Origin: Gemmataceae bacterium
GTDB lineage: Bacteria > Planctomycetota > Planctomycetia > Gemmatales > Gemmataceae
Assembly: GCA_009692005.1 (NCBI GenBank)
Contig: SHZZ01000015.1
Location: 1-63,191, forward strand
Length of the DNA stretch: 63,191 bases
Direction of reading: 5' to 3'
A program made the translations under genes and the position numbers. Below are positions 28,082 through 35,804 of the stretch, one piece after another (position 1 is the stretch's first letter; each line of letters begins with the position of its first letter). The notes below the pieces were generated by a model. It was not told the DNA's origin and searched no databases. It saw only the letters and a program-made list of their open reading frames with translations.

Positions 28082-29278
28082 ATGGCGGAAAACAACGGCA
28101 AGAAGAAAGAAAAAAAATGGGCCCCGCGCATGTGGCAGGGGTGCATCCTACCCGCTTGGCTGCGCCTTGCAGTCAAAAACAAATTCCTCGTTCACCCTTC
28201 CAAGTGGTACATCGCCTTCAACATCACCGCTATCAGCGCTTTGAACCTGGCCTTACGCTATTTGCAACAGGGGATTTACGGCAGCATCCCTTCCAACACG
28301 CCAATCACCCAACCGCCAGTGTTCATCCTCGGGCACTGGCGCACCGGCACCACGCTTCTTCATGAACTGCTCATCCTCGACCCGAGGCACAATTTTCCCA
28401 ACACTTATCAGTGCCTCGACCCCAGCCACTTCTTGTTAACGGAAGGGTTTTTCAAAAAGTATTGCAATTTCTTGCTACCGACGAAGCGGCCGATGGACAA
28501 CATGGAAGCTGGCTGGGACAAGCCGCAGGAAGACGAGTTTGCCTTGTGCATGATGGGCCTTCCCTCCCCTTACCTGGGGGTGGCCTTTCCGAACAACCCG
28601 GCGCCGATGCCGCAGGCCTTTGAAATCAACCGGTTGGAAAAAAGGGAACAACAACGATGGAAGGAAGGGTTTCAGGAGTTTTTGGCGGAAATCACTTTCC
28701 GCGATCGGCGCCGCCTGATCCTGAAATCCCCCACCCACACTTGCAGAATTCCCACATTGCTGGAATTGTTCCCTGATGCGCGCTTTATTCACATTGTCCG
28801 CGACCCGTACACTCTCTTTCCCTCAACGGTAAACCTGTGGAAATCCCTGGGGGAAAACCACGGCCTGCAGACCCCCTCGCACCAGCAGTTGCCCGAGAAG
28901 GTTTTCAATGAATTCAACATTCTTTACAAAGCCATTGACCGCGACAAGCAACTCATCCGGGCTGACAGGTTTTTTGAAGTCCGCTACGAGGACCTGGTGA
29001 AGGAACCGATGGAAATCACCCGGCAGATTTACAGCCACTTGGGGCTGGGGGATTTTGAACCCACACGCGGGCCAGTGCAACGCTACCTCGATTCCCGCAA
29101 GGATTATCAAACCAACAAATACAAGCCCTTGGAACCTGCCCTGCTGGAAGAGATCAATCGCCGTTGGGGATGGGCCATCGACCGTTATGGCTATCCCCGG
29201 CGGAATCCCGAGGCCATGGTTCCTCAACCCCCCGCACCCAGTTCCCCTTTTCCCTTGCTTGAAGGAGTCCGCACATGA
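28082..29278 (+). CDS. sulfotransferase family protein
   Basis: 398 residues. Cytoplasmic or membrane-associated sulfotransferases move the sulfuryl group from PAPS to a hydroxyl or amine. The 5'-phosphosulfate loop is VFILGHWRTGTTLLHELL near residues 80-97 and the 3'-phosphate block is RFIHIVRDPYTLFPSTVNLW near 235-254. Supporting blocks are RLILKSPTHTCRIP and FFEVRYEDLVKEP, and the Pfam Sulfotransfer_3 layout fits. Residues 42-60 are mildly hydrophobic and could attach the protein to the membrane. A proline-rich tail follows the domain. The stop overlaps the start of tpx by four bases, so the two are coupled, an odd pairing with no obvious pathway link. Confidence 0.88.
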   Translation: MAENNGKKKEKKWAPRMWQGCILPAWLRLAVKNKFLVHPSKWYIAFNITAISALNLALRYLQQGIYGSIPSNTPITQPPVFILGHWRTGTTLLHELLILDPRHNFPNTYQCLDPSHFLLTEGFFKKYCNFLLPTKRPMDNMEAGWDKPQEDEFALCMMGLPSPYLGVAFPNNPAPMPQAFEINRLEKREQQRWKEGFQEFLAEITFRDRRRLILKSPTHTCRIPTLLELFPDARFIHIVRDPYTLFPSTVNLWKSLGENHGLQTPSHQQLPEKVFNEFNILYKAIDRDKQLIRADRFFEVRYEDLVKEPMEITRQIYSHLGLGDFEPTRGPVQRYLDSRKDYQTNKYKPLEPALLEEINRRWGWAIDRYGYPRRNPEAMVPQPPAPSSPFPLLEGVRT

Positions 29279-29784
29279 GTCATTCCGTTACTTTTAAAGG
29301 CGAAGCCAAGAACCTCCTGGGAAACCAGGTCAAGCCGGGCGACACGGCGCCGGATTTCCAATGCCTGGTGGGGCTCGATGTGGTCAATCTCGCCTCCACG
29401 CCTGCAAAACCACGCCTCTTCAGCGTCGTCCCTTCGCTCGACACCGGCGTCTGCAGCATGCAGACCAAGAAGTTCGATCAGGAACTGGCGCAAATGAAAG
29501 ACAAGGTCGCCGCCTATACCGTTAGCCTCGACCTTCCGTTCGCGCAGAAGCGATATTGCTCGGCAGAAAACATCGGCCACCTGTCGACCCTTTCCGATTG
29601 CCATAACCATTCCTTCGGGAAGAACTATGGAGTGCTTTTGGAAGGGCTGCCATTGCCCTTATTGACCCGCGCCGTTTTCGTGGTGGATGGCAAAGGGGCC
29701 GTGGTTCATGCTGAATATGTAGGCGAAGTCACCAACCACCCGGATTATGAGCTGGCGCTGACCGCGTTGAAGAAGTTGCTATAA
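29275..29784 (+). CDS. tpx: thiol peroxidase Tpx
   Basis: 169 residues. Tpx is an atypical two-cysteine peroxiredoxin that reduces hydrogen peroxide and alkyl hydroperoxides with electrons from thioredoxin. The peroxidatic cysteine is C60 in VPSLDTGVCSMQT, and the resolving cysteine is C95 in QKRYCSAEN. Both are at the family's usual positions. The start MSHSVTFKGEAKNLLGNQVKPGD is standard and there is no signal peptide. It overlaps the sulfotransferase gene by four bases. A second peroxiredoxin, probably with selenocysteine, is encoded about 3 kb away. Confidence 0.95.
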   Translation: MSHSVTFKGEAKNLLGNQVKPGDTAPDFQCLVGLDVVNLASTPAKPRLFSVVPSLDTGVCSMQTKKFDQELAQMKDKVAAYTVSLDLPFAQKRYCSAENIGHLSTLSDCHNHSFGKNYGVLLEGLPLPLLTRAVFVVDGKGAVVHAEYVGEVTNHPDYELALTALKKLL

Positions 29785-32822: not shown

Positions 32823-32862
32823 AAATAAGAAACGGCGGGCATCTGCCCGCCGTTTCTTATTT
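32823..32862. terminator. bidirectional terminator with 19-base-pair perfect stem
   Basis: The two arms, 32823-32841 and 32844-32862, are perfectly complementary over 19 bases. The tip is the two bases TC. The stem foot is AAATAAGAAA / TTTCTTATTT, so both strands give an A-stem-T pattern. It separates the porin-like gene from the convergent peroxiredoxin gene. Confidence 0.85.
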
Positions 32863-32873
32863 CATCCTGGCTT

Positions 32874-33404
32874 TTATTTCAGATTCTTTTCAATAAACGC
32901 CAGCACTTCCTGCGGGTGGGCATCGATTTTCACCGCGGTGTAGATCTTCCTCACCGTCCCGGTTTTGTCGATCACATAGGAATAGCGCGAGGCCATTCCC
33001 GATTTCCCCAACGCGCCGAAGGAAGCCGTCACCTTTTTATCCGGATCGGCCAGGAGAGGGATCTCCAGCTTTTCCTTGGCCACAAACTTCTGCTGGTCTT
33101 CGTACTTGTCGGTGCTAATTCCAAAAACAACGGTATCCAGTGCGGCGAATTTTTCAGCAAGACCGCTGAAACCGCACGATTCCTTGGTTCAGCCACCCGT
33201 CATGGCTTTGGGATAAAAGAACAGCACCACATTCTTCTTGCCCTTGTAGTCCGCGAGATCAACCTTGATTTCCTTGCCCTTGCTGGCGGCCGTGAGGGAA
33301 ACCGCCGGCGCTGGCTTGCCTTCTTCGGCTTTATCCGCGCCCATCGCTGGTCCTCCCAACATGCTTATTCCGCCCAGCAAGAGGCCCATCATTAACCGTC
33401 TCAT
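32874..33404 (-). CDS. selenocysteine-containing peroxiredoxin (BCP/PrxQ-like), exported
   Basis: 176 residues including selenocysteine at position 72, encoded by an in-frame TGA (33191-33189). The N-terminus is a signal peptide (MRRLMMGLLLGGISML, cut near GADKAE). The peroxiredoxin domain follows: GKPAPAVSLTAASKG, NVVLFFYPKAMTGG, then UTKESCGFSGL. BCP-type peroxiredoxins have GCTKEAC here, so the TGA is exactly the peroxidatic cysteine codon, and C77 is the resolving residue at +5. The frame then continues without stops through FGISTDKYEDQQKFV, IPLLADPDKKVTASFG, YSYVIDKTGTVRKIY and VLAFIEKNLK. A SECIS-like hairpin lies 24 bases downstream of the TGA. The ATG at 33404 has a GGAGG site. It should reduce peroxides outside the cytoplasm. 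Selenocysteine machinery genes are not in the window. Confidence 0.88.
33152..33171 (-). promoter_or_regulatory. SECIS-like hairpin of the selenoprotein gene
   Basis: On the coding strand TTTCAGC and GCTGAAA form a perfect seven-pair stem around loop GGTCTT. The loop starts 24 bases after the TGA. Bacterial SECIS elements need a hairpin 16-37 bases past the UGA with a G in the first loop positions. The E. coli fdhF loop contains the same GGUCU. Confidence 0.8.
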
Positions 33405-33486
33405 ATTCAGGTCCTCCTACTGTTGACTTTCAACACCAAAAAGGATTGTGGGGTTTGAACCAGTGGAAAGCAAGTGGCAAAATATT

Positions 33487-34140
33487 TCAAGGAAGAAAAC
33501 TCGCGGGCAGGCCAATGCCAACCACGCGGACCTCGCCCAGGAAGGGCCCCGCGGCCGGATTTTGAAAACCGATCTTCCCAGTCACCATGGTGGCCGTGAT
33601 GGCTGCGCGGACCGTGGGATTAAACGGCTGACCACTGTCGCCATCCAAACCCGAAGGAATGTCCACGGCAAGGATCGGCAGCCCCGAGGCGTTCATTTTT
33701 TCCACCACGCGGTTGATGGGCGAACGCAACGCCCCGCTTTGCCCCGAGCCCACCAGGGCGTCCACGAGCCAGGCTGCCCCCGTGAAATAGGATTCCAGCG
33801 TGTCGATTTTCGCATCGTCCATCACGGTGACAGGTATGGTGGCATGTGAAACGGCGGCAAATTGAACTGCGGCATCGCCGGCCAGGTTCCCGGGTTTGCA
33901 AAAAAGCAGCACTTCCACCTTAATCCCCGCGCCATCCAGGTGGCGGGCAATGACAAAGCCATCGCCGCCGTTATTCCCACCGCCGCAACAGATGACGACC
34001 TTGCCTGGGATCTTCTTTTCCAGCAGGATTTCCGCCACGCCGCGGCCAGCATTTTCCATCAGGATCAGCCCGGGAATGTGCCCCTGGCTTTTCGCCAGCC
34101 AGTCGATTTGACGAGATTCCTTCACACTGAGATACCGCAT
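33487..34140 (-). CDS. nnrE: NAD(P)H-hydrate epimerase
   Basis: 217 residues. NnrE converts the R epimer of damaged NAD(P)H hydrate to the S epimer so the dehydratase can repair it. The YjeF-N fold is clear: SVKESRQIDWLAKS at the start, LILMENAGRGVAEIL, the nucleotide loop CGGGNNGGDGFVIARHL near residue 52, WLVDALVGSG with the catalytic aspartate near 125, and AVDIPSGLDGDSG. The usual companion dehydratase domain (YjeF-C) is not fused and not adjacent. It follows kdgK by 11 bases and is the last gene of the eda-kdgK operon, an unusual place for a repair enzyme. Confidence 0.9.
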   Translation of the reverse strand: MRYLSVKESRQIDWLAKSQGHIPGLILMENAGRGVAEILLEKKIPGKVVICCGGGNNGGDGFVIARHLDGAGIKVEVLLFCKPGNLAGDAAVQFAAVSHATIPVTVMDDAKIDTLESYFTGAAWLVDALVGSGQSGALRSPINRVVEKMNASGLPILAVDIPSGLDGDSGQPFNPTVRAAITATMVTGKIGFQNPAAGPFLGEVRVVGIGLPASFLP

Positions 34141-34151
34141 GGCCCGGCCCC

Positions 34152-35138
34152 CTACCTGCTGATGCGCAACCCGCCGCCCTTTAATAAACTTTCCACTTCC
34201 TCCGGCCGCACCCAGGCAAAATCTCCTGGAATGGAATGCTTAATGGCGCTGGTGGCCACGCCCCAATCGAGGCCTTTTTGAATATCCCCATTCAACGAGC
34301 CGTGGATGAACCCAGCGACAAAGGAATCGCCGGCCCCCAGGCGGTCGACGATTTCCACTTCGAACTCACGGGTCTTATAAACCTGGCCCTGGTGAAAAGC
34401 CATGGCGGTCCAGGTGTTTTTCCACACCAGCGGATTTTCCCTCAGGGTAATGGCCACGACATCGAGGCGGAACTTCTCCGCCACCTTCGCCGCCACTTCT
34501 TCGTAATCCTTTCCCGTTATGCCAAAGACCTTCTCCACATCCTCCTCAGTAGTGACCAGGACATCGCAGAATTGCATCAGGTCGGCCAGGCACTTTCCCG
34601 CCTCGGCCGTGGACCAGAGTTTGTTGCGGTAGTTGAGGTCCATGCTGACGCGCACCTTGGCGTTTTTGGCGGCCTGCATGGCTTCCCTTGTGGTGGCAGC
34701 CGCGCTGGCGCTTAACGCCGGGGTGATCCCCGTCACATGGAACCACCTCGTGCCTTGAAAAACTTTTTCCCAGGGAATCATGCCGGGTTGAATGGCGGCG
34801 ATGGCGGACCCTTTGCGGTCGTAAAGCACGCTGCTGGCCCGCGGCGCCGCGCCGAACTCCAGAAAGTACAATCCCAGGCGATCGTCCTTGGAATAAATCA
34901 CGCCGCTGGTATCGACCCCCGCTTCTCGGCCATGATTGGCGACCAGCCGGCCGAGGGGGTTGTCGGGCAACCGGGAAATCCAGGCGGTAGACCTGCCCAA
35001 ACGGGCGGTGGCCACAGCGGTGTTTAACTCCGCGCCACCCACTTGCAAATCCAGGCTGCGCGCCTGTTCCAGTCTGCGAAATCCTGGGGGAGAAAGGCGG
35101 ATCATCGCCTCGCCAAAAGTCACCAGATCATGCGCCAT
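34152..35138 (-). CDS. kdgK: PfkB-family sugar kinase, probably 2-keto-3-deoxygluconate kinase
   Basis: 328 residues. KDG kinase phosphorylates 2-keto-3-deoxygluconate to KDPG, which the neighbouring aldolase splits into pyruvate and glyceraldehyde 3-phosphate. PfkB signatures are visible: FGEAMIRLSPPG at the start, VGGAELNTAVATARLG, MDLNYRNKLW and the C-terminal DRLGAGDSFVAGFIHG with the catalytic aspartate. The GGAELNTA and DLNYR blocks are typical of KDG and related keto-sugar kinases. It follows eda by three bases, so the two belong to one operon for hexuronate or aldonate breakdown. No dehydratase for making KDG lies nearby. Start at 35138 is unambiguous. Confidence 0.88.
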   Translation of the reverse strand: MAHDLVTFGEAMIRLSPPGFRRLEQARSLDLQVGGAELNTAVATARLGRSTAWISRLPDNPLGRLVANHGREAGVDTSGVIYSKDDRLGLYFLEFGAAPRASSVLYDRKGSAIAAIQPGMIPWEKVFQGTRWFHVTGITPALSASAAATTREAMQAAKNAKVRVSMDLNYRNKLWSTAEAGKCLADLMQFCDVLVTTEEDVEKVFGITGKDYEEVAAKVAEKFRLDVVAITLRENPLVWKNTWTAMAFHQGQVYKTREFEVEIVDRLGAGDSFVAGFIHGSLNGDIQKGLDWGVATSAIKHSIPGDFAWVRPEEVESLLKGGGLRISR

Positions 35139-35141
35139 GGG

Positions 35142-35804
35142 TTACTTGCCCCCTGATTTCTTGTTGCGGTAAGAGGAAACAATTGCGGCATACTGTGCCG
35201 CCAGGTCGCGAATTCGAGAGAAGTTTTTTTCCTTAACGGCCTGCGGTTCGACCAGTTGGGAGCCCACGCCCAGGCAGCAGGCGCCGGCCTCGAGGAATTT
35301 TTCCGCCGTCGCCAGGTCCACGCCCCCGGTTGGCATCAGCTTGACTTGTGGCAAAGGTCCGCGCACCGCCTTGAAAAACGCCGGGCCCAAAACCTCCGCG
35401 GGGAATACCTTGCAGACATCGGCGCCAGCTTCCCACGCCGCAAGTATCTCGGTCGGGGAAAACACCCCGGGCATTACCGCCTTGTCGTAGCGCTGGCACA
35501 GCCGGATCAGCTCCAGGTTCAAAACCGGGGACACCAGGTACTCCGCCCCGGCAAGGATTGCCGCGCGACCCGTCTCCGTGTCCAAAATCGTCCCCGCGCC
35601 AAGGATCACTTTATCCCCTAGCGCCGCCCGCACCGCGCGGATCACCTCCAGGGCATTGGGCACCGTCATGGTGATTTCTAGCGTATTCACTCCGCCCTCG
35701 GCAAGGGCTCTGGCTACTTCCACCAACTGCCCACTGTCGGGCGAGCGGACGATGGCCACGATTCCCGATTTCAGAATTTCTTTCAGGCAAGCATCACGGC
35801 TCAA
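35142..35804 (-). CDS. eda: KDPG/KHG aldolase
   Basis: 220 residues. This class I aldolase cleaves 2-keto-3-deoxy-6-phosphogluconate (and 4-hydroxy-2-oxoglutarate). The TIM barrel shows GIVAIVRSPD, ALAEGGVNTLEITMTVP with the catalytic glutamate E43, VILGAGTILD, AEYLVSPVLN, MPGVFSPTE, the Schiff-base lysine K132 in ADVCKVFPAEVLG, and LMPTGGVDL near the phosphate site. It is the first gene of an operon with kdgK and nnrE. The start MSRDACLKEIL fits family length. Confidence 0.94.
   Translation of the reverse strand: MSRDACLKEILKSGIVAIVRSPDSGQLVEVARALAEGGVNTLEITMTVPNALEVIRAVRAALGDKVILGAGTILDTETGRAAILAGAEYLVSPVLNLELIRLCQRYDKAVMPGVFSPTEILAAWEAGADVCKVFPAEVLGPAFFKAVRGPLPQVKLMPTGGVDLATAEKFLEAGACCLGVGSQLVEPQAVKEKNFSRIRDLAAQYAAIVSSYRNKKSGGK

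Follow-up and report, generated by a model that had tools for sequence, protein, structure and literature searches.

A gene in a Gemmataceae bacterium very likely encodes an exported selenocysteine-containing peroxiredoxin, and its lineage has probably interchanged selenium and sulphur many times

The stretch of DNA analysed here (the window) comprises 63,191 nucleotides of a draft assembly from a Gemmataceae bacterium (4.19 Mb in 99 contigs). On its minus strand, a placement absent from the original prediction, lies a gene whose frame contains a TGA at codon 72 (Table 1). The predicted ribosome-binding site is intact, and the hydrophobic leader that had been called a signal peptide is present, as judged by crude hydropathy only. 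Directly 3' of the stop codon is an inverted repeat likely to serve as a transcription terminator. Upstream on the same strand, at 33487-35804, are an NAD(P)H-hydrate epimerase-like ORF, a PfkB-type sugar kinase and a KDPG/KHG aldolase, which, named by eye from sequence, resemble a sugar-acid pathway cluster. A Cys-type thiol peroxidase (Tpx-like) is found 3 kb from the gene, on the plus strand at 29275-29784, so the organism also has sulphur-based peroxidases.

Table 1. Features of the locus and of related genes in the same genome. Positions without a contig label are those of the window.
Feature	Location	Strand	Details and basis
Complete predicted selenoprotein gene (signal peptide plus BCP/PrxQ-type peroxiredoxin)	32874..33404	-	176 aa, residue 72 = Sec; ATG at 33404, TAA at 32876-32874; translation with TGA = U, Pfam, AlphaFold2
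In-frame TGA, predicted to be read as selenocysteine, at the peroxidatic position (PxxxTxxU; PKAMTGGU)	33189..33191	-	Codon 72; aligned codon TGA, TGC or TGT in 129/129 related loci
Cys77 codon, candidate resolving cysteine, 5 residues past Sec	33174..33176	-	U72-T-K-E-S-C77; matching place in BCP homologues
Probable signal peptide, about residues 1-23, MRRLMMGLLLGGISMLGGPAMGA	33336..33404	-	N-terminal hydrophobic core, crude hydropathy only
Probable bacterial SECIS	33140..33191	-	Apical stem 33171-33165/33158-33152, loop GGTCTT 33164-33159, lower stem 33177-33172/33145-33140; fold, synonymous suppression, decay in Cys sisters
Shine-Dalgarno AGGAGG, 8 nt 5' of ATG	33413..33418	-	Sequence
Perfect 18-pair inverted repeat with 4-nt loop, likely terminator	32823..32862	-	AAATAAGAAACGGCGGGC-AGAT-GCCCGCCGTTTCTTATTT
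selD (L024), probable selenoprotein gene	G000 C47:7588-8517		In-frame TGA in SCAGUAGK
Four further probable thioredoxin-fold selenoprotein genes, L011-L014	G000 C34:8660-9019, C32:38164-38592, C78:22709-23017, C98:11769-11906		WUPPC, UPPC, UIPC, UIPC

A TGA flanked by two open stretches is common, with 79 such places in the window, so the argument rests on homology and not on the open frame. The feature that is not due to chance is a single profile match that spans both sides and has the TGA at its catalytic column. When TGA is translated as selenocysteine (Sec, U), the read-through product matches Pfam AhpC-TSA (E 6e-33, residues 29-153) and Redoxin (E 4e-24). The first of these runs across the TGA, bearing out the claim that both halves are peroxiredoxin, and the TGA falls, as had been proposed, at the peroxidatic cysteine (PKAMTGG-U-TKESC). 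An AlphaFold2 model built with 40 sequences has a mean pLDDT of 92 and a peroxiredoxin fold; its best fold matches in the PDB are peroxiredoxins, Prx2 and Bcp structures among them, and the best PDB sequence match is Sulfolobus Bcp1 (PDB 3drn, E 2e-22). P65, T69, residue 72 and R140 are invariant in 40 sequences, and the PxxxTxx(C/U) site, the conserved Arg and the thioredoxin-like fold together mark the protein as a peroxiredoxin.

The codon at the site was compared in 129 aligned loci, 49 from planctomycetes and 80 from species genomes (partly the same genes). The group statistics exclude L061, whose homology is doubtful: its TGA sits in a less similar motif (PVUSRELPAC, with no GGU). Every one of the 129 has TGA, TGC or TGT as the aligned codon and none has another stop, the replacement that the original prediction had named as telling against it. 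Forms with TGA also occur in Actinomycetota, Myxococcota and Verrucomicrobiota. A TGA that is one base from both TGC and TGT, in a draft assembly, invites the explanation that it is a nonsense mutation or a miscalled Cys codon in a pseudogene, but finding TGA at the same codon in numerous independent genomes, from different genera, orders and phyla, already refutes this. The protein sequence past the TGA is moreover still constrained: compared with L028, a Sec gene of the sister genus, there are 18 amino acid changes in the 86 codons beyond codon +17 and 18 in the 59 before the TGA. Synonymous sites downstream of the TGA are conserved as well, and we regard a pseudogene or sequencing error as extremely improbable.

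The machinery that the original prediction required (selA, selB, selC and selD) was located in the same genome: selA (E 2e-140), an adjoining 637-aa ORF that is selB-like by its sequence, a tRNA-Sec with anticodon TCA, and a selD that itself has an in-frame TGA in its active-site motif, so that SelD is probably a selenoprotein too. Sec machinery in planctomycetes, among them Gemmata obscuriglobus, had already been noted in 2016 (PMC4807772). Among the 20 planctomycete-set genomes with the TGA form, the present one included, 18 have a full selA; the exceptions are G017, whose assembly has selB and no selA, and G054, which is 79% complete. Because the homologous residue is Cys, insertion of Cys at the TGA would also give a working enzyme, and the codon might be read as Cys or Trp, or by general readthrough, instead of as Sec. 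We consider this most unlikely, since the full Sec pathway with its TCA anticodon is present, TGA also terminates genes in this genome and in relatives (SelD, for example), and homologues of the TGA type are found alongside selA or selB, bar in one incomplete genome.

The present gene is one of five among the 16 AhpC-TSA matches in its genome that contain one TGA. In the other four, the TGA stands at the catalytic residue that opens a UxxC motif, making them probable further selenoproteins of thioredoxin fold. The peroxiredoxin gene would probably be annotated as two fragments or a pseudogene, leaving the organism's antioxidant set under-read, and all five thioredoxin-fold genes, as well as selD, could be misannotated in the same way.

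The window gene has, after its UGA, a hairpin with a G in a small apical loop, as a SECIS should. Its apical stem of 7 pairs (TTTCAGC/GCTGAAA) and GGTCTT loop are as originally described; the distance of 24 nt given for the hairpin is that to the start of the loop, and the stem itself begins 17 nt from the TGA. Below the apical stem is a second one, GTGCGG/CCGCAC. The GGTCT of the loop resembles, we presume, that of E. coli fdhF. Taken by itself the hairpin is statistically weak (z -1.8 against dinucleotide shuffles, with 9 of 200 shuffles equally stable; z -0.7 against synonymous randomisation), too weak to decide the matter, and comparative tests were therefore used. These do support the SECIS that had been claimed. 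Relative to L028, synonymous differences are found in 2 of the 17 codons after the TGA and in 66 of 109 elsewhere (p 1.6e-4). The region downstream is also the more stably folded in Sec genes: its folding score after synonymous randomisation averages z -1.25 in these and +0.09 in Cys genes (Mann-Whitney p 1.9e-5, an optimistic value given that the sequences are related).

Requiring a perfect 7-pair stem separates the two types poorly and was rejected: such a stem is found in 4 of 20 Sec genes, 0 of 29 Cys genes and 12% of the window gene's synonymous randomisations, for which codon frequencies were drawn from the same genes. A single covariance model was not built because SECIS shapes differ between Sec subclades.

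The frame, the site, the machinery, residue conservation, downstream RNA conservation and the probable SECIS all support the same reading at the level of sequence. We are highly confident that the gene encodes an exported BCP/PrxQ-type peroxiredoxin with Sec at residue 72, predicted to be inserted by SECIS/SelB decoding. UGA recoding in the cell, export, peroxidase activity, the role of Cys77 and the reductant are steps that we infer from established peroxiredoxin chemistry and bacterial Sec insertion. The hairpin directly 3' of the UGA would recruit SelB with Sec-tRNA(Sec), so that ribosomes would insert Sec at residue 72 rather than stop; the protein would then be exported and its signal peptide removed. 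Its selenolate would attack peroxide to give a selenenic acid, which Cys77 would attack in turn, forming a Se-S bond that a thioredoxin-like protein of the cell envelope may reduce. The TGA could also act mainly as a selenium-dependent switch, with a 71-residue fragment released and degraded when selenium is lacking and Cys peroxiredoxins taking over, and Cys-type peroxidases such as the Tpx-like ORF are indeed in the genome. This is an unlikely main role: no regulatory element was found, and such a switch would be an outcome of Sec decoding, not an alternative to it.

Sec-containing COG1225 peroxiredoxins with the TxxU motif form a selenoprotein family known since 2005 (Sargasso Sea selenoproteome, PMC1088965; family list, PMC13188914). 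The window protein shares with them a common fold, the COG-level group (BCP), PxxxTxxU with peroxidatic Sec, and a bacterial SECIS-like hairpin after the UGA. The gene is thus a new member of this family, and the 'new selenoprotein' of the original prediction holds in that sense; it does not found a new selenoprotein family. What it adds is a predicted N-terminal signal peptide, and its planctomycete subfamily is unnamed in the literature that we found. A literature search for an exported Sec peroxiredoxin returned none, which is weak evidence of absence. A crude hydropathy measure finds an N-terminal hydrophobic core in most planctomycete homologues of both types, so export is apparently common to the Sec and Cys forms of the planctomycete subfamily; by the same measure the actinobacterial Sec forms seem to have no leader.

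Among curated families, NCBIfam NF006960 (BCP/PrxQ) gives the best match at 102.7 bits, under its cut-off of 140, and by this score the protein is BCP-like and not a member of the equivalog. Like BCP/PrxQ thiol peroxidases such as Sulfolobus Bcp1, it has a candidate resolving cysteine at +5 (UTKESC), as the original prediction had it; unlike them, it has Sec in place of Cys and is predicted to be exported. In some homologues the second cysteine is at +4 or absent, so resolution may take place differently from one member to another. PrxU of Eubacterium acidaminophilum (Soehling 2001, as cited in PMC13188914) likewise has Sec at the peroxidatic position, but the window protein belongs to a different peroxiredoxin subfamily, scoring 45 bits against NF040737 (peroxi_PrxU, cut-off 270).

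The added interest of the gene is evolutionary: its lineage has gone back and forth repeatedly between selenium and sulphur. When Sec or Cys is mapped as a label onto a 67-row protein tree, 15 changes have to be assumed, and well-supported branches force at least 10 of these. Both forms exist within the sister genus, where three species (L028, L029, L081) carry TGA and a nearly identical SECIS, and two (L077, L078) carry TGT. The TGT pair no longer has the U in the loop (GGACTC or GGGCTC replaces GGTCTT) or the lower stem, and its fold is weaker, at -11.8 instead of -19.1 kcal/mol. Changed codons number 6 of 17 in the decayed SECIS of these Cys sisters, compared with 30 of 144 (p 0.15) or with 13 of 86 downstream (p 0.06), an excess that is suggestive only. 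In a DNA tree made without the site and the SECIS, the TGT pair joins the sister TGA species (99/99), and the AU test rejects the four TGA forms as a clade of their own (p 0.005). Since the window gene branches outside the sister genus and has the same SECIS, the simplest reading for the TGT pair is Sec loss; both TGT genomes keep selA. It is likely that the exported peroxiredoxin lineage of planctomycetes has undergone many Sec/Cys interchanges with the machinery kept, one of them a true reversal from Sec to Cys in the sister genus.

Such reversals have been reported almost exclusively for formate dehydrogenase, SelD and a handful of other families. A 2006 survey had no Sec-to-Cys event for peroxiredoxins; it described SECIS remnants in some Cys homologues, so reversals of this kind are known in other families (PMC1794560). 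A 2026 review calls Sec-to-Cys events rare and documented mainly in FdhA and SelD (PMC13188914). Close Sec/Cys pairs in one genus, with the SECIS conserved in some and decaying in others, offer a natural experiment on what makes bacteria gain or abandon selenium at one given site of one enzyme.

The comparison of relatives also turned up database titles that look wrong. The metagenome-assembled contig of L082 (CAMCLK010000060.1), titled Candidatus Kuenenia stuttgartiensis, has the gene of G022, a genome of the window's family, and the BCP-like proteins encoded on the contigs of L094 and L098, which are titled Bifidobacterium breve, closely resemble those of uncultured freshwater bacteria.
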